Of a stretch of 64,000 nucleotides of DNA, positions 49,491 to 61,502 are shown piece after piece (position 1 is the stretch's first letter; the number at the start of each line of letters is the position of its first letter). Origin of the DNA: Vibrio sp. SCSIO 43136 (GTDB lineage: Bacteria > Pseudomonadota > Gammaproteobacteria > Enterobacterales > Vibrionaceae). The translations under genes were made by a program, and so were the position numbers. The stretch spans positions 496,001-560,000 of the forward strand of contig NZ_CP071849.1 in assembly GCF_023716565.1 (NCBI RefSeq), written 5' to 3'. Below the pieces are notes generated by a model, which was not told the origin of the DNA, did not search any database, and saw only the letters and a program-made list of their open reading frames with translations.

Positions 49491-50909
49491 ATGCAATTAA
49501 TTTGGTTTCGACGAGACTTACGTACCATTGATAACCCCGCACTTTTGCAAGCGATTAAGTCGGGGCAGCCAGTGGTGGCGGTTTATACCGCTACGCCATT
49601 AACTTGGCAGTCTCATAATGTAGCCCCTATTCAGACAGACCTAACTTATAGACGATTACATTGCCTCAAACAGTCTCTCGCTGAGTTGGGCATCCCGCTA
49701 CTTTGTTCATCCTTGCCAACCTACGCAGATAGTGCGGAGGCTGTGGCGACGCTCGCTGAAACAGTTGGTGTAAGTGCAATTCACAGCAATCTAGAGTATC
49801 CCATCGATGAATCCCGCCGAGATGCATTACTAGATAGCAAGCTTGCGGCAAGCGACATCGAGATTTTTTGGTATCACGACCGTTGCGCTATGGTGCCGGG
49901 CAGTGTAATGAATCAACAAGGCGCTTACTTCAAGGTGTTTACACCTTTTAAAAAGGCTTGGATAAAGCAGTTTCTTTGGCATGAATGCTCTGTGACTGCA
50001 CCAGAGGCAGTAAGGCAACAAGCCAAGTTACCCCAGCTACCACAAGGCTGGACTGAGAATATTCCTGAGAGCGATGGAAGTAGCGATGCTTACCCTGTAG
50101 ATGACCAAGCGTTATCGAGCCGACTGAACCAGTTTGTTGAGCTGTCAGCCCCCGACTACAAGCTGCGTCGTGACTTTCCGAGTCAAGCGGCCACGAGTCA
50201 ACTCTCTCCCTACTTAGCTATCGGTGCAATCTCCGTCAAGCAATGTTTGGTGTCGCTACTCAATGTTCGAAATATTGATGAGCTGGGTGAAGGAGAGCAC
50301 ACCTGGCTGAGCGAGCTGATCTGGCGTGAGTTTTACCAGCATTTACTGGTCTTTGAGCCTCGACTTGCCAAAGGAGAAGCCTTTGTGAAGTGGAGTGAAA
50401 ACATTATCTGGCACTCTCGTAACGACTGGCTTTTAGCGTGGCAACAAGGGGCAACGGGTTATCCTATAGTGGATGCGGCCATGAGGCAGCTCAACCAAAC
50501 TGGCTGGATGCATAACCGTCTGCGCATGATTGTGGCGAGTTTCCTCACTAAGGATCTATTAATAAACTGGCGAGAAGGGGAGCGCTACTTCATGAGCCAG
50601 CTAATCGACGGAGATTTTGCTGCCAATAATGGCGGCTGGCAATGGTCAGCATCAACGGGATGTGATGGACAGCCTTATTTTCGTATCTTCAATCCGATCA
50701 CCCAAGGGGAAAAATTTGACCCTAATGGGGAGTTCGTCCGCAGGTGGTTGCCAGAGCTATCTGGCGTGCCAGACAAATTTATCCATAAACCTTGGCTTTG
50801 GCAGGGGTGTCAGGATCTCGCATATCCTTCACCAATAGTTGATCACAGCATACAAAGAGGATTAGCCTTAGAGATGTATCAACAAGCCAAAGAGATGGGT
50901 AATGAGTAA
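49491..50909 (+). CDS. phrB: Deoxyribodipyrimidine photolyase
   Basis: This 472-residue class-I CPD photolyase repairs UV dimers in DNA using light and FADH. It begins with the photolyase domain IWFRRDLRTIDNPAL and ends with the FAD/DNA region: WLSELIWREFYQHLL, WMHNRLRMIVASFL, NGGWQWSASTGCDGQPYF. Length equals that of E. coli PhrB (472). It is third in a light-responsive-looking operon after the DUF523/1722 and MerR genes and overlaps the L,D-transpeptidase gene by 8 bp. Confidence 0.95.
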   Translation: MQLIWFRRDLRTIDNPALLQAIKSGQPVVAVYTATPLTWQSHNVAPIQTDLTYRRLHCLKQSLAELGIPLLCSSLPTYADSAEAVATLAETVGVSAIHSNLEYPIDESRRDALLDSKLAASDIEIFWYHDRCAMVPGSVMNQQGAYFKVFTPFKKAWIKQFLWHECSVTAPEAVRQQAKLPQLPQGWTENIPESDGSSDAYPVDDQALSSRLNQFVELSAPDYKLRRDFPSQAATSQLSPYLAIGAISVKQCLVSLLNVRNIDELGEGEHTWLSELIWREFYQHLLVFEPRLAKGEAFVKWSENIIWHSRNDWLLAWQQGATGYPIVDAAMRQLNQTGWMHNRLRMIVASFLTKDLLINWREGERYFMSQLIDGDFAANNGGWQWSASTGCDGQPYFRIFNPITQGEKFDPNGEFVRRWLPELSGVPDKFIHKPWLWQGCQDLAYPSPIVDHSIQRGLALEMYQQAKEMGNE

Positions 50910-51807
50910 AACATGGAGCGTGCTTGCGTTGTTGCTGCTGACAGGCAGTTGCTTTGCAGCTCAATTTGAATTGCCAAAAGATGGCAGCCGTATCGTGGGG
51001 AAAGTACAACGTCACTTGGTCGGGGAAGGAGAGACCTTCGCCCAAATCGCCAAAGATTACGATATTGGTTTTCTCTCTTTGATGGCGGCAAACCGCGGGG
51101 TTGACCCATTTTTACCTGCCGAAGGCACCGTGCTGACGATCCCTTCCATGTTCATTCTTCCCCCCGTTGAGTACAAAGGTATCGTGATCAACTTGCCAGA
51201 GCTGAGGCTCTATTACTACCCAGAAGGCACTAACCAAGTTCACGTGTTTCCTGTTGGCATCGGACGTATCGGGCGCGATACACCGCAAATGAAAACCCAC
51301 GTTTCGGTGAAGATTCCAAATCCGACTTGGACGCCACCGGCCTCAATTCGTAAAGAGTATCTAGAAGAGAAAGGCATTGATCTACCCAAAGTGGTTCCCG
51401 CAGGTCCCGATAACCCGCTTGGAGATTATGCGCTTCGATTGGCGTACGGACGAGGTGAGTATTTGATCCACGGGACTAATAAGGATTTCGGTATCGGTCT
51501 TCGGGTGAGTGCTGGCTGTATTCGAATGGAGCCCAAAGATATCGAATGGTTGTTTGGTCAAGTACCTAAAGGTATTCAAGTACGGATCATTAATCAGCCA
51601 GTCAAGGTGACATTAGAACCCGACAGAAGCGTGTTTATGGAAGCGCATGAGCCATTGACGGAAAGTAACGGTGACAAACAAGAATTAGTATTACCGATGG
51701 AATTGGAATGGTGGATGGACGAGTTTGGGATATCTAACAGTAAAGCTCGTGCGGTGATTCAAGTTCAAAACGGCGTGCCGATTGAAATTGCAACCCCACC
51801 ACTGTAG
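50902..51807 (+). CDS. L,D-transpeptidase of the ErfK/YbiS/YcfS type
   Basis: This 301-residue periplasmic enzyme has a signal peptide (to about CFAA20), a LysM-like segment (HLVGEGETFAQIAKDYDI, about 33-75), and a YkuD catalytic domain with HGTNKDFGIGLRVSAGCIRM, where His, Ser-Ala-Gly-Cys and Arg form the active site. E. coli relatives (310-330 residues) attach Braun lipoprotein to peptidoglycan. Here the lpp gene lies just beyond, convergent, so enzyme and substrate are neighbours. Its start overlaps the photolyase gene by 8 bp; sharing a light-controlled operon is odd for a wall enzyme. Confidence 0.9.
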   Translation: MSKTWSVLALLLLTGSCFAAQFELPKDGSRIVGKVQRHLVGEGETFAQIAKDYDIGFLSLMAANRGVDPFLPAEGTVLTIPSMFILPPVEYKGIVINLPELRLYYYPEGTNQVHVFPVGIGRIGRDTPQMKTHVSVKIPNPTWTPPASIRKEYLEEKGIDLPKVVPAGPDNPLGDYALRLAYGRGEYLIHGTNKDFGIGLRVSAGCIRMEPKDIEWLFGQVPKGIQVRIINQPVKVTLEPDRSVFMEAHEPLTESNGDKQELVLPMELEWWMDEFGISNSKARAVIQVQNGVPIEIATPPL

Positions 51808-51831
51808 GTGAACACAAACTTCGCCAAACAA

Positions 51832-51864
51832 AAAGCCAGCGTGAGAGTTTTTTACGCTGGCTTT
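51832..51864. terminator. Terminator between L,D-transpeptidase and lpp
   Basis: AAAGCCAGCGT (51832-51842) pairs with ACGCTGGCTTT (51854-51864). It separates the convergent genes and can serve both; a smaller TGACG/CGTCA hairpin at 51878-51891 lies nearer lpp. Confidence 0.85.
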
Positions 51865-51903
51865 CTTATTGGAGCAAGTGACGCAAGCGTCAGTTCGCCT
51901 TAA

Positions 51904-52170
51904 TTATTTTTTGTAAGACTGAGCAATGTTGTCGATACGATCGTTAGCACGCTCTGCTTCTTCTTGAGCAGACATGGCAGCGTTCGCCGCTTTCTCAGCT
52001 TGCATTGTTGCTTGGTTTTGGCCTGATTGAAGGGTCTGAACTTGCTGTGATAGCTGCTCAACTTGGTTTGCTAGGCTGTCAATTTTTTCAGCCATTGGAT
52101 CTGGGCTGCTTGAACAACCAGCCAAAAGTAGAACGGAAGCACCAGCTGCAAGAATAAATTGTTTGCTCAT
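51904..52170 (-). CDS. lpp: Major outer-membrane (Braun-type) lipoprotein
   Basis: This 88-residue protein has a lipoprotein signal with LLLAGC20, an alpha-helical heptad-repeat body (EKIDSLANQVEQLSQQVQTL and following) with an Ala-rich half, and C-terminal SYKK whose last Lys should be joined to peptidoglycan. E. coli Lpp has 78 residues. It forms a trimeric coiled coil linking outer membrane and wall. AAGGAG precedes the ATG. The enzyme gene likely to attach it is next door at 50902. Confidence 0.93.
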   Translation of the reverse strand: MSKQFILAAGASVLLLAGCSSSPDPMAEKIDSLANQVEQLSQQVQTLQSGQNQATMQAEKAANAAMSAQEEAERANDRIDNIAQSYKK

Positions 52171-54147: not shown

Positions 54148-56493
54148 ATGCAAGTCAAAAAACTCTCTATTTATACTATATTAATGTCAGCAGTGGTGGT
54201 GACTTCTGGGTGTAACCAAGAAGACAAGCGCACATTTGTCGATGTAACGGCCCCGGCTATTTCAATCAAAGGTAATGTGGTTACTCGTCTAGAGGCTGGC
54301 CAGCCCCATATCGATGCAGGTGCAACTGCAAGAGATGATGTTGATGGTCCGGTGCCTGTAGTCGCAACAGGCAATATTGATCAAGATGGCCAAGTTGATA
54401 CCTCCGAACTGGGCCAATCTGCAATTGTGTACACAGCGACTGATAGTTCAAATAACTCTAGCTCTGCTATTCGTACGCTTATTATTGAAGATACGTTGGC
54501 TCCTGTTGTCACTCTTAATGGTGAAAACCCTGTGACTCTAGAGGCAGGTCGAGATGAGTATGTGGAACATGGTGCAACGGCGCTCGACTCCTACGACGGA
54601 GTGCTAGAGCTGACAATCAGTGGGTCGGTTGACCATAATCAATTGGGTCAGTATCAAGTAACCTACAGTGCGATGGACCGATCAAATAATGTTGGCACTG
54701 CGGTAAGAACAGTCAATGTTATTGATACTATTGCTCCGGAACTTACGCTACACGGTGATCGATACATTGAGCTTATTTCACCGCAAGAATTTGTCGATCC
54801 AGGAGCAAGCGCTGTTGATTTATTTGAAGGGGCATTACCTGTCGTTGTGTCAGGGTCTGTTGATCACATGACGCCTGGTACATACCACCTGACTTATCGT
54901 GCGACAGACAGCTCAGGAAACTCAAGTGCTGACTCTAGAACGGTAGTCGTTAAGAGTCTGGACAGAGCTCTTGACCTAAATGTGAAGAACTACTTTGATG
55001 GTACGACAGTAGCTAACTCAAATGTTATCGCAACTATTTATAAAGATGGTGGGGTACATCAAGAACAGCGTTCCGCAGTGACAGATAGTGAAGGCAAAGC
55101 AACACTGTTTGTACCAAAGGACTCTCAACGTATTACTGTGCTTTCTGACGCTTGGGACTACGGTTATTATGGTAAAGCGATTTCAGTTGCTGAAGCTAAC
55201 GTAGACCTATTTCAACAGCCCGTTGTTGCTAAGAAGCGCTTTACACCGGGTCATGATTCTAACTTTACTGTTTCGGTATCTGATATAGATATTATTGAAT
55301 TAGATACCAGTTTTATAATCGACCTCCAAGGCTACGCTCCAAGTATTGACTTAATGAGTGAAGTTACGGTTATCGATCCTGCGCATGATCCTGCGTTGAT
55401 GCCAGGAAACTATGAGACCGTTGGTGAAGATGGGGTTGTTCGTAATATCGAGAGTTTTGGAGCAGTTACATTAGGCATTAATGACGAGAATCGTAACAAG
55501 TACAAAATGCTTGATGGGTTCTATGCTACGGTTCGTATCCCGCTAGCTTCTAGCGTCCAATCTGCTCCAAAGCATCTGTCTTTATACTACTATGACTTCG
55601 AATCAGGATATTGGGTAGAAGGACCACGAGCAGAGCTGATGAGCAATGGCACCAGTCAATATTACCAAGGCAAAGTATCCAAATTTTTGACTTGGAGCGC
55701 AGTTAACCCTATTCAAACCATCCGCATAAACGGTCACGTAGTTGACAAAAACAACAACAGAGTTGCAGGCGTTAATGTAAGTACGCAAGGTGTTGACTAC
55801 TCTGGACGAAATTGGGCAACGACAGACATAAATGGTGAGTTTGCAGTTGCTGCAAAGGCTAACTCTAAAGTCTTACTGTCCGCTTCATCGAAAGATGGCG
55901 AAAGTAGAACACAAACTATTGTGACTGGAAGTGAAGACATTCAACTATCGGAAAGTATTGTTCTAACAGAAAGCGCAGCAGTTGTTACTCTGACTTGGGG
56001 AGCAACACCATCTGATTTAGATACGCAGTTCTTCGGACCAGATTCGGAGTCAGGTGATAGTAGTTTTTTAGTGTACCACGGTAACAAACACCATCATTTT
56101 GAAACCGGATCTGTTTGGCTTGATGTTGATGACACTAGTGGTTTTGGGCCAGAAGTGACGACAGTTGAAACGCTTCCATATCAAGGCAGATACAGTTATG
56201 CAGTTAAAAACTACTCACGTTCGGGTAGCATTGTAAGCTCTCCTGGTCGTGTAGAACTGAGTTTTCAAGGCAGAAAGCAAGTTTTCTCACCACCAGTAGG
56301 TCCGGAGTCTTATTGTTGGGCAGTTTTCGATTTTGTTGTTAATCATGGTGGTGGCATCACTATTGAAGAGAAATCCAGCTGGGAAGATGATGCATATTGT
56401 AGTGGACAGCGTACTTCGAGATTTTCAACGATGTTTGAAGTTGAAAACGTCAGTATTTTGCAAGATCTAATCATCAAGAAATACTACAAGTAA
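54148..56493 (+). CDS. Large surface lipoprotein with Ig-like DUF5011 repeats and DUF2135-like end
   Basis: This 781-residue protein has a lipobox (VTSGC22, next residue Asn, so outer-membrane sorting is expected). Three DUF5011/HYR-type Ig-like repeats follow (about 34-113, 114-191, 192-268), each with VTLEAGxxYVDHGATA-like and YxxxDxSxNxSxxxRTV features. The middle (about 270-520) is beta-rich and unassigned; about 524-595 is a carboxypeptidase-regulatory-like fold (NGHVVDKNNNRVAGVNVSTQ); the end (about 610-781) resembles YfaP-type DUF2135 (WGATPSDLDTQFFGP, WLDVDDTSGFGPE). It is likely surface-exposed. It lies 210 bp upstream of the rotary-motor operon in the same direction, and may be its external part. 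Confidence 0.82.
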   Translation: MQVKKLSIYTILMSAVVVTSGCNQEDKRTFVDVTAPAISIKGNVVTRLEAGQPHIDAGATARDDVDGPVPVVATGNIDQDGQVDTSELGQSAIVYTATDSSNNSSSAIRTLIIEDTLAPVVTLNGENPVTLEAGRDEYVEHGATALDSYDGVLELTISGSVDHNQLGQYQVTYSAMDRSNNVGTAVRTVNVIDTIAPELTLHGDRYIELISPQEFVDPGASAVDLFEGALPVVVSGSVDHMTPGTYHLTYRATDSSGNSSADSRTVVVKSLDRALDLNVKNYFDGTTVANSNVIATIYKDGGVHQEQRSAVTDSEGKATLFVPKDSQRITVLSDAWDYGYYGKAISVAEANVDLFQQPVVAKKRFTPGHDSNFTVSVSDIDIIELDTSFIIDLQGYAPSIDLMSEVTVIDPAHDPALMPGNYETVGEDGVVRNIESFGAVTLGINDENRNKYKMLDGFYATVRIPLASSVQSAPKHLSLYYYDFESGYWVEGPRAELMSNGTSQYYQGKVSKFLTWSAVNPIQTIRINGHVVDKNNNRVAGVNVSTQGVDYSGRNWATTDINGEFAVAAKANSKVLLSASSKDGESRTQTIVTGSEDIQLSESIVLTESAAVVTLTWGATPSDLDTQFFGPDSESGDSSFLVYHGNKHHHFETGSVWLDVDDTSGFGPEVTTVETLPYQGRYSYAVKNYSRSGSIVSSPGRVELSFQGRKQVFSPPVGPESYCWAVFDFVVNHGGGITIEEKSSWEDDAYCSGQRTSRFSTMFEVENVSILQDLIIKKYYK

Positions 56494-56511
56494 TTAAACT
56501 TGTCATTTATG

Positions 56512-56542
56512 AAAGGCTCGCAATATTAATGTTGGAGCCTTT
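56512..56542 (+). terminator. Weak terminator after the lipoprotein gene
   Basis: AAAGGCTC (56512-56519) pairs with GAGCCTTT (56535-56542). The T run is poor, so read-through into the next operon is likely. Confidence 0.55.
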
Positions 56543-56632
56543 AGAAAATTTAGTGACTTTTTGTTGTGCGGTATGTCTTTTTTTAATTTGTTGCTTCGCT
56601 AGGTAAGTTTTTTTTATCAGTTTGGCTCGCGA

Positions 56633-56661
56633 TTGAATAAATGATATTAGCTATGTAATAT
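56633..56661 (+). promoter_or_regulatory. Promoter of the motor operon
   Basis: TTGAAT (56633-56638), a 17-bp spacer and TAATAT (56656-56661) make a good sigma-70-type promoter 42 bp before the TTG start of the outer-membrane protein gene. No sigma-54 or sigma-28 flagellar promoter is seen. Confidence 0.6.
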
Positions 56662-56703
56662 CCACACCTCAATCAGTTACCTCGTCATATCAGGCAAATA
56701 ATT

Positions 56704-57717
56704 TTGAAAAAAATAGCTCTAATTAAGCTAGCAATTAGCTCATTTTTGCTGTCTTTATCGGCAGTCGCATCTGACGTTACTACGTCAAATTTAAATACGG
56801 TGTACGATTTCATCGAAAGTGATGGTGTTTGGTTTGCGGTAAAAGATAGTGCAGCAAATAATGCAGTTAAATCTGTGACCGTTGTTTATCAAGGTCGCAT
56901 TGATGAAACGACCACACAAGGTCAAGTCGACGATATAAATTCGCAGCTAAAAAGTAAGCTGCATAACATGGGCTTAACGGTCCGTGACTGTATCGAATGC
57001 GGTAAACAAACCGTGCATTTGACAAAAACCTCGATCAAATATAAGCGAGGTTTAGAAACGAACGACGACCTGCGTCAATTAGGGCGTGAAATCCAAAGTG
57101 ATGCTTTCCTAAAGTGGGACATGAACATTGCTCAAGATAGCCAAAATATGATCCTTGCGCTGGTCAAATCTGAAAACAATCAGGTGTTTTGGACAGATAG
57201 CTTCTATCGTTCCGAGCTTGTTGACGAGATCGTTGAGAAACAAGACCGTAGCCAGTTTGGTATTGCTCTGAGCAATATTGCCCTAGGTGCATATCCTAAC
57301 TCTCCACGTTTAAATGGCTTCGACAACGTAACTGATTTTAGCCTTCGTTATTACACCGGTCGTCAACCAAACGAAAAGCTTCACTTTGCGGTGATTGCTA
57401 ATCACTTCCGAAGCACCGACCAAAATCGCAACATTGATGTGAAAAGCTATGGTGCTGAAGGGCGTATCCTATATAGCATCACCGACTCTTGGCCGAAGCC
57501 GAGTGTTTATCTGGGGCTAGGCTCGCAGTTTATCGAAGGTCGCAACAATCTATCAGTACGCACAGGTGTTGAGTTTGCGGTGATGAAAAATCTGTTTTTC
57601 GACTTAGGTACCATCTACGTGGAGCGTAACGATTATCACCGTATGGAAGTAAATAGCATTCCACCGGTGACTTTTGGTGGTTTAGCTGTCGATTTTACCG
57701 TTGGTCTTCGCTTCTAA
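56704..57717 (+). CDS. Outer-membrane protein with CsgG/FlgO/FlgT-like domain and beta-barrel
   Basis: This 337-residue protein has a signal peptide (to about AVA22), a periplasmic part (about 50-180) in the style of CsgG/FlgO/FlgT/TolB-N domains (INSQLKSKLHNMGLTVRDC, LGREIQSDAFLKWDMNI, NNQVFWTDSF), and a C-terminal part (about 195-337) of alternating amphipathic strands ending in GLRF, the terminal Phe typical of outer-membrane barrels. FlgT and FlgO are parts of Vibrio flagellar basal-body rings, so this could be the outer-membrane bushing of a motor. The start is a TTG with AGG upstream. First gene of the five-gene motor operon; the next starts 6 bp later. Confidence 0.72.
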   Translation: MKKIALIKLAISSFLLSLSAVASDVTTSNLNTVYDFIESDGVWFAVKDSAANNAVKSVTVVYQGRIDETTTQGQVDDINSQLKSKLHNMGLTVRDCIECGKQTVHLTKTSIKYKRGLETNDDLRQLGREIQSDAFLKWDMNIAQDSQNMILALVKSENNQVFWTDSFYRSELVDEIVEKQDRSQFGIALSNIALGAYPNSPRLNGFDNVTDFSLRYYTGRQPNEKLHFAVIANHFRSTDQNRNIDVKSYGAEGRILYSITDSWPKPSVYLGLGSQFIEGRNNLSVRTGVEFAVMKNLFFDLGTIYVERNDYHRMEVNSIPPVTFGGLAVDFTVGLRF

Positions 57718-57723
57718 GGAGTT

Positions 57724-58302
57724 ATGATGAAATTTAAATACCTACTTTTGGCGACGCTGATCAGTCAACCTGTTTTTGCGTCAGAACAAGATGACGAAAC
57801 CCAAGTAGATCTGGCTCCAGCGATGCAAACCCCTTTGACACCAACCCGCGATGACTTGCTTGTGATTGAAGTGCAAGGGAATCAATATCGCTCATCGGTT
57901 CAAATAGACTTGTCTGATCCAAACTTAATCCTTGTGATTGATAATGATGCGGTAGAAGCTCAACAAGGCGACACAGAAGAGCTTCTTGAATCAGAACTTT
58001 CTGAAGAGGCGGCAGAACTTGATGAAGAAACCGCTCTTACTCTTGATAGAGAAGCTGAGTGCTTGGCTCTGCGTCTTGAAGCGAAAGAAGCTGCTGCTAA
58101 AGGTGACTATGAGCAAGCGCTGAAGTTGTTGGACCAAGCGTTGCCACTCGCTGAGCAACCAGCTCAGGTGCTGGCGACGAAAGGCAGTGTGCTCTATAAG
58201 CTCAAAGACATGCCAGGTGCGATCCAAGCATGGAAAAAGGCTCTAGCTATTGACCCATCGATGACAGAAGTCTCTGAAATGCTTAAATGGTTGGAAAAAT
58301 AA
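57724..58302 (+). CDS. Periplasmic TPR protein of the motor operon
   Basis: This 192-residue exported protein has a signal peptide (to about VFA19), a beta-like segment (about 40-75, DLLVIEVQGNQYRSSVQ), an acidic linker (GDTEELLESELSEEAAELDE), and two or so TPR repeats (about 115-190: AAAKGDYEQALKLLDQALPL and LYKLKDMPGAIQAWKKALAI). TPR proteins act as assembly scaffolds, as PilF or TcpI-like pilotins do. It begins 6 bp after the outer-membrane protein gene with GGAG before it, and ends 1 bp before the FliF-FliG fusion gene. It probably connects the inner- and outer-membrane parts. Confidence 0.78.
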   Translation: MMKFKYLLLATLISQPVFASEQDDETQVDLAPAMQTPLTPTRDDLLVIEVQGNQYRSSVQIDLSDPNLILVIDNDAVEAQQGDTEELLESELSEEAAELDEETALTLDREAECLALRLEAKEAAAKGDYEQALKLLDQALPLAEQPAQVLATKGSVLYKLKDMPGAIQAWKKALAIDPSMTEVSEMLKWLEK

Positions 58303-58303
58303 T

Positions 58304-60031
58304 ATGAGCAAGGTAATTCAATTTATTGGTAGCTTTGCTCTAGTTGCGAGTACTGTTGTCGCAGCACAGTCGTCTCTTGAGCTTGAGCAAATGGCTTTTA
58401 CAGCCGAATTAGAATCACGTCTTAATAACGATATCGAACGTGTGATTGGTCCAAATCGTCATGTTTTAGTGGTTGAGGCAGAGCTTGTTCGAGAGCCTAT
58501 TGGAGTGCCTGAGCAAGCACTAGCACCGCAACAACCTAAACCTGTTGCGTCGACCAAGGTTAATGACGAACGACTCCCAGAACTTCCTGGGCTATCAGGG
58601 ATTGCAACGGCGGATGCACTAGAGGTTGTAGAGCAGGATCTTGATGACACGCAAGTAAATCAAGAAGAGTTGCCTTTACAAGAACAGCCAACCGCTCCTG
58701 CGATGGAAAAGAAAATTCGCTCCATTTCTACAATTCTTCAGCTCGATACCAGTATCGCACAAGATAAGGTTGAACTGGTACGAAGCGTAGCGTTGAAAAA
58801 ACTGCAATACAATGCGCTACGTGGTGACAAGTTTACATTGATCCAAACGGATTTAGAGATAGCAGATCAAAATTTTGCTGGAGCGAAAAGCTGGCAAGAT
58901 TACTGGTGGGTAGTGATCGTCGCAATTGCGCTTCTAATTGCCTTGTGGGGCGTGATGAAAGCTAAGAGAGCGGTTAAAGAAGATGCTCCGGTGATTGATA
59001 TGTCTCCCAGTGCCCCACAAGCATTGCTAGATGCAAAAAAGGGGGAGCTGAAGGAGATCCGTCAGAAACTCGTTAAGTACAGCCTAAGTGAACCTAAAAA
59101 GGTCAATGATGCTCTTAGCCGGCTGAGCTTAAATGAGCAAAATACTCCCGTGTTTGCTTCAGCGTACCAAGAGCTAGGCCGTGCCCTGTTTACGTCGGTT
59201 TTTCCGGTACTCAATAAGCAAATCCCTACTTACTTGAAATACCTGGATGAAAATCCAGCGGATTACGATCGTCTAGTTCGTGACCTGTCTGACTTGCAAC
59301 ATTTATTGGTTGACGCTAACTCAGTGGAGCAATTCGAGTTTCAAACTCGTCCGTTTGAGTTCCTTGAAAAGCTAACGACTAATCAGGTCCGCTGGTTAAT
59401 CGACGATGAAGCGATCAAAATTAAAGCTCTAGTATTAAGCCAACTTTCTTCACAGCAAGCGAGTTCACTGATGGCAACATTTGAGCCAGAAGTACAAGCA
59501 ATGCTGGCCACCGAGATTGTTCAATTTGAATCGATGCCGATGGCTGCATTTAATGAAGTGGCGACTTCGCTGGCTGTAAAAGCGCAAACTGTTCCTGATT
59601 ACAAGACGGTTAAGTCGGACGGTAATCAGATCTTGGTTAATTTGTTGGATAGCATGAATATGAGCCAACAAGAAGGCCTGCTAGCCCAGCTAAAACAGTC
59701 ATCGCCTGATTCGTACATTGAACTTCGTAAGGTTTACTACATCTTTGAAGATTTGGTTAATACACCGAAGAATGTGGTTAGCAACGTACTGCGAACAATT
59801 GACGGTGAAACTCTAGCAATAGCCTTTGCAGATATAGAAGAAGCAGATTTGACTCGCTTACTTAGCTGCTTACCTGATCGTTTTGCTGCAATGGTACAGT
59901 CCGAGATCGAGCGTATGGCTACGATCACAACAGAGCAACGATTTGCTGCGAAGCAACAAGTTGTCGATGCAATGCGTGTCGCCCTTGCAAACAACCAGTT
60001 CCACATGAGTGATCTGGAGCAAGCTGCATGA
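58304..60031 (+). CDS. Natural FliF(C-domain)-FliG fusion, rotor protein
   Basis: This 575-residue protein joins two flagellar parts. Residues 1-22 are a signal or first membrane helix. Residues 30-185 resemble the FliF/YscJ C-terminal ring domain: ELESRLNNDIERVIGPNRHV and, after an acidic Pro-rich insert (65-135), KKIRSISTILQLD with VALKKLQYNALRGDKFTLI. A membrane helix follows (200-219). Residues 245-575 match FliG: middle domain (FLEKLTTNQVRWLIDDEAIK, VLSQLSSQQASSLMATFEPE) and C-terminal domain (SDGNQILVNLLDSMNMSQQE, KVYYIFEDLVNTPKNVVSNV). In the torque-helix region (511-538) R526 and E534 align with E. coli FliG R281 and D289. It would be an inner-membrane ring with its rotor head in the cytosol. 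The stop overlaps motA-like start by 4 bp. Confidence 0.82.
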   Translation: MSKVIQFIGSFALVASTVVAAQSSLELEQMAFTAELESRLNNDIERVIGPNRHVLVVEAELVREPIGVPEQALAPQQPKPVASTKVNDERLPELPGLSGIATADALEVVEQDLDDTQVNQEELPLQEQPTAPAMEKKIRSISTILQLDTSIAQDKVELVRSVALKKLQYNALRGDKFTLIQTDLEIADQNFAGAKSWQDYWWVVIVAIALLIALWGVMKAKRAVKEDAPVIDMSPSAPQALLDAKKGELKEIRQKLVKYSLSEPKKVNDALSRLSLNEQNTPVFASAYQELGRALFTSVFPVLNKQIPTYLKYLDENPADYDRLVRDLSDLQHLLVDANSVEQFEFQTRPFEFLEKLTTNQVRWLIDDEAIKIKALVLSQLSSQQASSLMATFEPEVQAMLATEIVQFESMPMAAFNEVATSLAVKAQTVPDYKTVKSDGNQILVNLLDSMNMSQQEGLLAQLKQSSPDSYIELRKVYYIFEDLVNTPKNVVSNVLRTIDGETLAIAFADIEEADLTRLLSCLPDRFAAMVQSEIERMATITTEQRFAAKQQVVDAMRVALANNQFHMSDLEQAA

Positions 60032-60810
60032 TCTCATTAAGCACCATTACTGGCCTATTGATGGCAGTGGGCGTTCTGTTGGGAGCCATTATTATGAGTA
60101 CAGATAACTACATGTTATTTGTCAGCTTTTCTAGCTTGATAATTGTGCTTGGCGGAACGTTAACAGCAACTTTAATGAGCTATTCATATCCGTTAATTTT
60201 TCAGTCATTTAAAGGTTTTTTGCAAAACCTAATCGATGAAAAAAATGTGGTAAAAGCAAAGCAAGACTCTATATCTCGCACTCTGGAATGGAACCAAATA
60301 TTCCGTACAGGTGGTATGGCTGCGTTGGAAACTTCGCTAACTGAAAAAGAGTTAAAGGACCCATTTGTCAGTTTGGGCATTGAGCTTATCGGTACTGGTT
60401 ACAAAGGAAGTGAGCTTAAGAATATGCTTGACGAGAGTAATCACAGCCAGCGCCAAGCTGAGATGAGTCAAGCGCAAGTGCTCAACTCTATGGGTAACTT
60501 CGCCCCAGGCTTTGGAATGATTGGTACTCTGATTGGCTTAATTACCATGCTAGATAACTTAAATGGTGATTTGGCAGCATTAGGCAATGGCTTAGCAGTA
60601 GCCCTATTGACTACGTTATACGGTATTTTGCTTGCTCAGCTGCTTTTCAAACCGGCTTCAACTCGCGTTGCTCGCCGTGTTGAGAATCACTTTGAGAATC
60701 GTGAGATGCAGATCAATGCTTTTGTCTTAATGACCGAAAAGCGTCCTGAGCTATACCTACAAGACTCCATGAACGCCCACTTGCCATTCCAAAAACGTTT
60801 GGAGGTTTAG
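60028..60810 (+). CDS. MotA/PomA-like stator subunit
   Basis: This 260-residue protein has four membrane helices and close similarity to PomA/MotA: TLTATLM in TM2, NFAPGFGMIGTLIGLITML in TM3 and ALLTTLYGILLAQLLFKPAS in TM4. P160 equals the essential TM3 proline. T167, T195 and T196 correspond to PomA Thr158, Thr185 and Thr186, which mark sodium stators. In the cytosolic loop, R93 and E101 (FRTGGMAALETSL) equal PomA Arg88 and Glu96, residues that contact FliG. TolQ/ExbB lack this loop. It overlaps the FliF-FliG gene by 4 bp and is followed by the MotB-like gene after 1 bp. Confidence 0.88.
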   Translation: MISLSTITGLLMAVGVLLGAIIMSTDNYMLFVSFSSLIIVLGGTLTATLMSYSYPLIFQSFKGFLQNLIDEKNVVKAKQDSISRTLEWNQIFRTGGMAALETSLTEKELKDPFVSLGIELIGTGYKGSELKNMLDESNHSQRQAEMSQAQVLNSMGNFAPGFGMIGTLIGLITMLDNLNGDLAALGNGLAVALLTTLYGILLAQLLFKPASTRVARRVENHFENREMQINAFVLMTEKRPELYLQDSMNAHLPFQKRLEV

Positions 60811-60811
60811 A

Positions 60812-61465
60812 ATGGCACGCCAACGTGTTAATCAAGAGCTTAAGGAGGACAACGAATGGATGACAACCTACAGTGATGCCATCACTTTATTGTTAGCATT
60901 CTTTGTTTTGATTGTTGCGGTATCACAGATCGATGAAGGTAAGCTTGAAGACCTAAAAAAGGGCCGAACTAGTATTATGGGTGAACCAGCCGATGTCCCG
61001 ATGGAGGTTATTCAAGCAGAGATCCAAGAAATTGTGGAGGAACAAAAGCTTGAGTCGGTTGTAATAACCCCAGTCATTGATGGTTTGAAAATCGAGCTGG
61101 ATAGTGAAAATCTGTACCAGTCGGGTTCTGCCGATTTAACGTCTAAAGGTGAACAAGTGATTAGAGAGTTTGCTGGTGCGTTGCTTGAGGTGAACTTAGA
61201 AGATCGAGCGATTGTTGTTGAAGGTCATAGTGATGATGTTCCTATTAATACTTCTAAGTACCGCAGCAACTGGGAATTGTCAGGCTCGCGTGCTGTTCAG
61301 GTTGTGCAGCAGTTGATTGATCTAGGCATCAATAAAAACCTTCTCAGTGCGATTGCATACGCAGACACTCGTCCACGAGCAGACCAATCGCTTACTATAG
61401 AAAAACAGCGAGAACAAAATCGGCGTGTGGTCATCTATATAAAGCGAGATTACACAGACCGCTAA
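60812..61465 (+). CDS. MotB/PomB-like stator subunit
   Basis: This 217-residue protein has one membrane helix starting WMTTYSDAITLLLAFFVLIV, with D22 at the place of the ion-carrying Asp24 of PomB (Asp32 of MotB). A plug/linker region follows (about 45-100), then an OmpA-type peptidoglycan-binding domain (VEGHSDDVPINTSKYRSN, LSGSRAVQVVQQLI, QREQNRRVVIYI) with its Asp/Arg peptide-binding residues. It is shorter than PomB (about 315), with a short linker, so the wall is gripped close to the membrane. Last gene of the operon; terminator at 61473-61500. Confidence 0.9.
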   Translation: MARQRVNQELKEDNEWMTTYSDAITLLLAFFVLIVAVSQIDEGKLEDLKKGRTSIMGEPADVPMEVIQAEIQEIVEEQKLESVVITPVIDGLKIELDSENLYQSGSADLTSKGEQVIREFAGALLEVNLEDRAIVVEGHSDDVPINTSKYRSNWELSGSRAVQVVQQLIDLGINKNLLSAIAYADTRPRADQSLTIEKQREQNRRVVIYIKRDYTDR

Positions 61466-61472
61466 CGAAATG

Positions 61473-61502
61473 GCCCAACTAGTGACTCTAGTTGGGCTTT
61501 AT
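61473..61502. terminator. Terminator of the motor operon
   Basis: GCCCAACTAG (61473-61482) pairs perfectly with CTAGTTGGGC (61488-61497), followed by TTTATT. It lies between convergent genes. Confidence 0.9.

Follow-up and report, generated by a model that had tools for sequence, protein, structure and literature searches.

A conserved Vibrio operon combines a FliF-FliG fusion with its own flagellar-class stator and envelope partners

To our knowledge, every known FliG ring belongs to the flagellum or, in the Chlamydiaceae, to a remnant of flagellar genes, and none of the TolQR, ExbBD, ZorAB and AglRS systems carries one. The nearest precedent for the operon described here is the natural FliF-FliG fusion of the Chlamydiaceae, bacteria that are not thought to be flagellated; the available text of its description gives a protein of about 330 amino acids, comprising a part resembling ring-building motif 2 (RBM2), a second stretch of RBM-like secondary structure and the M region only of FliG, and names few flagellar genes in these bacteria, FliF, FliL and FlhA (PMC4768692). 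According to the accessible part of a further study, MS rings assemble from an engineered FliF-FliG fusion of Vibrio (PMC11481574), and covalent fusion is therefore compatible with ring formation. Stator subunits have been divided in a survey into flagellar and generic groups, with TolQR, ExbBD and AglRS in the generic group apart from the flagellar stators and ZorAB more distant; no FliG-bearing non-flagellar set is described in the portion of that survey available to us (PMC12505986). Here we describe five plus-strand open reading frames (ORFs) at positions 56704-61465 of a 64,000-nucleotide stretch of Vibrio sp. SCSIO 43136 (NZ_CP071849.1, 496,001 to 560,000; this whole stretch is referred to as the window, and is part of contig 2 in a genome of two contigs and 4.97 Mb). 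They form one tight operon, with successive junctions of a 6-bp gap, a 1-bp gap, a 4-bp overlap and a 1-bp gap. The operon is real and conserved, is probably functional, and encodes the turning parts of a flagellar-type motor along with its own envelope partners, without a flagellum. No description of this five-gene set was found among the results listed by searches of part of the open-access literature, a scope outside which most subscription papers and all bioRxiv preprints fall. Its features, in window coordinates, are as follows.

56704 to 57717, plus strand: outer-membrane protein (OMP) with an LpoB/GNA1162/TolB-N-like domain and an 8-strand barrel
57724 to 58302, plus strand: TPR protein of 192 amino acids, with TPR repeats in its C-terminal half
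58304 to 60031, plus strand: rotor-like fusion of 575 amino acids, FliF (RBM3), membrane helix and FliG (M, C), from Pfam, profile and fold
58355 to 58858, plus strand: RBM3-like ring-building domain of the fusion (residues 18-65 and 134-185), from profile and fold
58889 to 58972, plus strand: membrane helix of the fusion (residues 196-223), from hydropathy
59381 to 59596, plus strand: FliG middle domain of the fusion, with EHPQ replaced, from Pfam, fold and alignment
59687 to 59989, plus strand: FliG C-terminal (torque) domain of the fusion, with R526 and E534, from Pfam, fold and alignment
60028 to 60810, plus strand: PomA/MotA-class stator subunit of 260 amino acids, with equivalents of PomA R88, E96, T158 and T186
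60812 to 61465, plus strand: short MotB-class stator subunit of 217 amino acids, with channel Asp D22 and an OmpA-type domain
61472 to 61497, strand not assigned: 10-bp hairpin directly 3' of the MotB stop, which the scan lists as minus-strand

In the rotor-like protein, RBM3 of FliF is followed by a membrane helix, in the place of the second one of FliF, and then by FliG_M and FliG_C. The FliG similarity is recorded by Pfam for both domains and by a PDB sequence match (E 2e-17), and the fold matches FliG of the MotAB-bound structure 8ucs_H with an rmsd of 1.3 over 88 residues. A Pfam search of the fusion for FliF_C was negative, a result that is overturned by profile-profile and fold comparison, both of which recognise RBM3 of FliF. 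RBM1 and RBM2 are absent, there being no YscJ_FliF match and the RBM3-like domain beginning at about residue 18; by reading, a hydrophobic stretch at residues 3-22, otherwise a candidate for the first membrane helix of FliF, looks like a signal peptide. The position of the beta-collar (residues 66-133) is modelled as a low-confidence, apparently disordered proline-rich loop. EHPQ, the FliM-binding motif of FliG, is replaced in the alignments, and binding of FliM by the fusion is therefore unlikely. When the torque domain is aligned to the window genome's own FliG, R526 and E534 occupy the places of R281 and D289, in what we take to be the E. coli numbering. Both residues are kept in all 14 aligned near rows (nine of 17 database proteins plus five locus translations, several of them closely related) and also in the distant genome G348. 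D288-D289 and R281 of FliG are also named in the available text of PMC12505986.

The last two genes encode the stator pair. The MotA_ExbB domain of the MotA-like protein and the MotB plug/membrane-helix and OmpA-type domains of its partner all score over curated cut-offs. The place of PomA R88 is Arg in seven of the eight operon proteins (His in a Shewanellaceae metagenome-assembled genome, MAG), that of E96 is Glu in seven of the eight (Asp in G380), and those of T158 and T186 are kept in all eight; the channel Asp (D22) of the MotB-like protein is kept in 6/6. At 217 amino acids the MotB-like protein is short, compared with 318 for the canonical PomB of the window genome. In a tree of MotA proteins, the eight operon proteins are separated by a single split, with support 91, from six further members of the MotA class. 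A TolQ or ExbB identity for the MotA-like protein was rejected (TolQ 17.8 bits, cut-off 221; ExbB2 15.8, cut-off 135; ExbB 14.6, cut-off 206), as was Zorya: ZorA scored weakly (best 17 bits) and ZorB moderately (best 75 bits), and no other Zor model was found among the seven proteins scanned. The best score of the MotB-like protein is against MotD, from the proton-driven MotCD pair; our guess from the two conserved threonines would be that Na+ is the driving ion.

The product of the first gene has a start that reads as signal-peptide-like, and its model contains the LpoB/GNA1162/TolB-N-like domain at residues 28-168 and an OmpA/NspA-type 8-strand barrel at residues 176-334; the Foldseek matches include a TolB chain. 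Its start codon, TTG, is uncertain (the database form has 334 amino acids). No Pfam match over cut-off was obtained for this protein, FlgT and FlgO included, neither of the two is among the fold matches listed for it, and its profile did not list the FlgT of locus L047 at E 10. The TPR protein, judging by its N terminus, would be periplasmic.

Within the window's family the fusion is found in seven of 329 genomes, the window genome included, in all cases at E <=1.4e-165; the next match, at E 3e-15, is FliG-sized. A scan of species genomes found it in an Aliivibrio fischeri strain (probably G003, to whose genus G004 also belongs) and in the Shewanellaceae MAG. The order OMP-TPR-rotor-MotA-MotB is identical in the window, G003, G004, G218, G219, G105 and the MAG (locus L011), and is thus kept in six of the seven other near genomes, the seventh (G217) having a deletion. 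An N-terminal profile matched 13 of 369 genomes in a sample of the class, the members being the window genome, G348, G380 and G425; among the nine others, six with loci are canonical FliF with FliG and three are without loci read. In a sample of the phylum it matched 15 of 398, namely the window genome and 14 others, of which 11 with loci are canonical FliF with FliG, giving no new member, and three had no readable loci. Both samples were drawn from larger groups, and few candidates per genome were scored. Two protein database searches, through which alone phyla beyond the window's were covered, scored 8000 and 7999 candidates and yielded 17 and 18 proteins, counting that of the window; the single protein gained in the second is FliG-sized. 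The operon's neighbours vary between loci where inspected, being two-component genes and a molybdopterin oxidoreductase in G004, and a response-regulator GGDEF protein and an AsmA protein in G218. An earlier note on the window had proposed, from its letters, a rotor-like FliF-FliG fusion, a flagellar-class stator and outer-membrane and TPR partners, and had named as a check a survey of their co-occurrence outside flagellar clusters. These proposals are borne out: the similarity of the fusion is significant by Pfam, PDB sequences, profile and fold, contrary to one of the conditions under which the note would have given up its reading; the stator domains exceed their cut-offs with torque-interface residues mostly kept; the OMP and TPR genes are shared by related loci; and the genes occur together mostly away from flagellar ones. 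The complete rotary machine that the note further proposed is a putative one, and one distant member (G425) has no PomA-class stator match at all.

The distant members are more varied. G348 has all five genes in the order of the window, G380 has five genes in a different order with a Sel1/SPOR protein, and the G425 locus holds a TPR protein, a protein with RBM3 and a membrane helix but no FliG part, the fusion, and a Sel1 protein. The RBM3-membrane-helix protein (L060 2660-3952) precedes the fusion, is 28 % identical to it over 267 columns (profile E 8.8e-18, in a two-sequence search) and looks like a duplicated ring module. The Sel1-repeat protein adjoins the operon in both G380 (L059 12974-14545) and G425 (L060 6331-7827), with a SPOR domain over cut-off in L059 only, hinting at a link to peptidoglycan. 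G348 and G380 group together in the MotA (89), MotB (98) and OMP (100) trees; several splits inside the near group have low support (31 to 53), so that congruence between trees holds only for the split of distant members, and the rotor tree, having a single FliG outgroup, cannot test monophyly of the fusion.

We favour, with moderate confidence, a reading of the operon as coding for an ion-driven rotary machine that is non-flagellar and acts on the cell envelope. The data themselves show the gene content, conservation, domain homology, retained torque and channel residues, and occurrence in two genomes without a detectable export gate, while ring formation, stator-rotor contact, rotation, the ion, outer-membrane coupling and the job are inferred. 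According to this model, the fusion would form an inner-membrane ring, in which periplasmic RBM3 domains make up one ring and cytoplasmic FliG domains a torque ring, joined by the membrane helix. A 5:2 stator of the MotA-like and MotB-like proteins, anchored to peptidoglycan, would act on the FliG torque helix and so turn the fusion ring. As the FliM-binding motif is lost, the ring may rotate one way only and have no chemotaxis switch. On its periplasmic side the ring could pass motion or force, by way of the long proline-rich loop and the TPR protein, to the OMP, whose LpoB-type domain is predicted to face the periplasm. Mechanical work on the envelope, either peptidoglycan or outer membrane, is the likeliest job, and not swimming.

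Several findings count against such a machine. FliG_N was not recognised in the fusion: residues 232-345, between the membrane helix and FliG_M, match neither FliG_N nor FliF and are of low confidence in the model, and a weak Pfam FliG_N match overlaps FliG_M and FliG_C. The place of FliG D288 is not kept in the fusion, and the torque-pair positions are K and T in G380 and T and T in G425. At its locus G425 has neither an OMP match nor MotAB, and genome-wide it has no PomA-class MotA match; the motor reading is weaker in distant members because of this absence of stator and OMP and because of the changed torque residues in G380 and G425. The places of PomA D31, D85, K89 and K107 are not kept in the MotA-like proteins, which fall below the NCBIfam equivalog cut-offs of PomA, MotA and MotP (best 136 bits, against 237-394), and the stator group is therefore divergent. 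Structure models of the rotor (pLDDT 62.8, pTM 0.30) and the OMP (pLDDT 69.3, pTM 0.43) are of moderate quality. The G217 locus (L046 8001-10065) lacks about 1.4 kb across the end of the OMP gene, the TPR gene and the start of the rotor gene, relative to its close relative L045. The G105 operon (L047 7248-14564) lies about 300 bp downstream of flgT (identified by Pfam) on the same strand, and the genes beyond flgT are presumably flgO, flgP and further flagellar genes, which they resemble in order and size. We found no reported phenotype for loss of the operon genes. Finally, motA2B2 of V. fischeri (VF_A0186-VF_A0187), which very probably correspond to the operon's stator genes, are among the down-regulated motility genes in one biofilm model, as given in the available text (PMC10804989).

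The likeliest alternative, which we consider improbable, is that the assembly is a force transducer that does not rotate freely, in the manner of TolQR or ExbBD. The stator would then drive conformational changes or a local pull on the TPR protein and OMP, transmitted by an immobile RBM3/FliG scaffold, for envelope maintenance or transport. The LpoB/GNA1162-class domain of the OMP and its Foldseek match to a TolB chain are in keeping with this, as are the variable torque residues of distant members, the G425 scaffold with its two RBM3 proteins, one of them without FliG, and no PomA-class stator, and the Sel1-repeat protein adjoining the operon in G380 and G425, with SPOR over cut-off in G380. 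However, the MotA-like protein is of flagellar class, keeps torque-interface residues and lies far under the TolQ and ExbB cut-offs, and the FliG torque domain is itself kept, all of which argues against a device of this kind.

It is more doubtful still that the operon is an accessory of the polar flagellum, providing an extra rotor-stator layer or a load-dependent stator set. The operon stands INDEPENDENCE from the flagellum: canonical FliG and FliF are encoded elsewhere in the window genome, on contig 1, and the fusion does not replace them, an outcome opposite to that which the earlier note had set as grounds for giving up its reading. FlhA (FHIPEP) is present in eight of ten member genomes, and all seven family members have both FlhA (interrupted in G004) and a canonical FliG, which would suit a flagellar accessory, as would the proximity to flgT in G105. 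In G004 the flhA gene contains stop codons (G004:C1:2120593-2122558) while the operon is intact; a pseudogene or a sequencing error is possible. Against a flagellar role, the fusion was not found in 322 of the 329 family genomes, its FliM motif is lost, and G348 (93 % complete) and G425 (98 %) contain the fusion with no FlhA match, their sole FliG_C lying in the fusion. G348 has one further MotA/TolQ/ExbB-family gene besides the operon MotA. No rod, hook, filament or export gene lies inside the operon, the neighbours having been scanned in part, with FlgT adjoining in G105.

V. fischeri bears on the same question. G003 and G004 each have two full-length PomA-class genes and no more, and motA2B2 are therefore very probably the operon's stator pair; by this comparison V. 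fischeri ES114 very probably carries the operon. In the available text of a 2013 study, motA2 and motB2 are treated as motor-protein paralogs, with no rotor partner named there, and as a pair unique among the complete Vibrio genomes of that time; insertion mutants in either gene showed normal soft-agar motility, and the genes were not FlrA-activated (PMC3948606), both of which speak against a flagellar accessory. The change of motA2B2 together with flagellar genes was seen in one data set, as far as the available text goes (PMC10804989), and favours it. A decaying remnant of a second flagellar system, in line with the flagellar origin of the motor parts and with the loss of part of the locus in G217, is highly improbable given five intact ORFs, dN/dS values (Nei-Gojobori, own script) of 0.005-0.39 and thus below 0.4 in each of ten pairwise gene comparisons, shared OMP and TPR genes, and distant members with the same gene set.

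Other genes of the window were considered as parts. The 781-amino-acid Ig-like lipoprotein at 54148-56493, which ends 210 bp upstream of the OMP gene, had been taken in the earlier note for an external component of the machine. That proposal falls, as none of 11 related loci contains a match to the lipoprotein at E 1e-5 (the loci extend about 7-10 kb to both sides, contig permitting; L010 and L043 probably come from one genome); with three Ig-like stretches and a carboxypeptidase-regulatory-like domain, it is apparently a separate, locus-specific surface protein. A DUF3859 gene was rejected as a partner, being present in 41 of 61 genomes of the genus. Eight other window genes had no match within flanks of <=1.5 kb in 29 of 30 loci, the thirtieth being the window's own, and an empty-site comparison therefore yielded nothing. 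Further upstream (50902-52170) lie a LysM/YkuD-like protein, which we take to be L,D-transpeptidase-like, and an Lpp-like small lipoprotein, neither of which matches in the 11 related loci. At the other end, the hairpin at 61472-61497 is a probable terminator of the operon; a promoter scan was uninformative, with five sigma-70-like sites against 14.9 in shuffles.

If a stand-alone FliG-type motor is indeed encoded here, it would show that rotor and stator can function in the absence of export gate, rod and filament, one rotor and two stator proteins would make a minimal system for studies of torque, and the finding would bear on whether these two parts once formed a unit independent of the flagellum's secretion part. 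This is testable soon, since V. fischeri ES114, a laboratory strain, very probably carries the operon. It is an evenly balanced proposition, in our judgement, that the operon represents a separate class of trans-envelope rotary machine, with a FliF/FliG-derived rotor and its own flagellar-class stator linked by TPR protein and OMP to peptidoglycan or outer-membrane work, with no appendage, and kept also by flagellum-less bacteria.

Among known systems, SpoIIIAG of the sporulation complex is a weaker match to the fusion than is RBM3 of FliF, and that complex is not known to include FliG or a stator. TolQR, ExbBD, ZorAB and AglRS resemble the operon in having ion-driven subunits of the 5:2 type outside the flagellum, but the operon's A subunit, unlike theirs, scores as flagellar class; motA2B2 of V. 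fischeri is very probably the same stator pair as the operon's. The earlier note's statement that none of the flagellum-related 5:2 motors brings its own FliF-FliG rotor needs a qualification, since the Chlamydiaceae have a natural fusion, although the chlamydial protein, in the available text, lacks the SpoIIIAG-like RBM3 and has FliG M only, with no MotAB mentioned there, whereas the operon fusion has RBM3 and FliG_C with a dedicated MotAB (PMC4768692). With the core of the flagellar motor the operon shares RBM3, FliG_M, FliG_C, the torque-interface residues of a flagellar-class MotA, and the channel Asp and OmpA domain of MotB. It differs from that core in having no RBM1 or RBM2, an apparently disordered loop in place of the beta-collar and no FliM motif, and in possessing a covalent FliF-FliG fusion together with outer-membrane and TPR proteins of its own.

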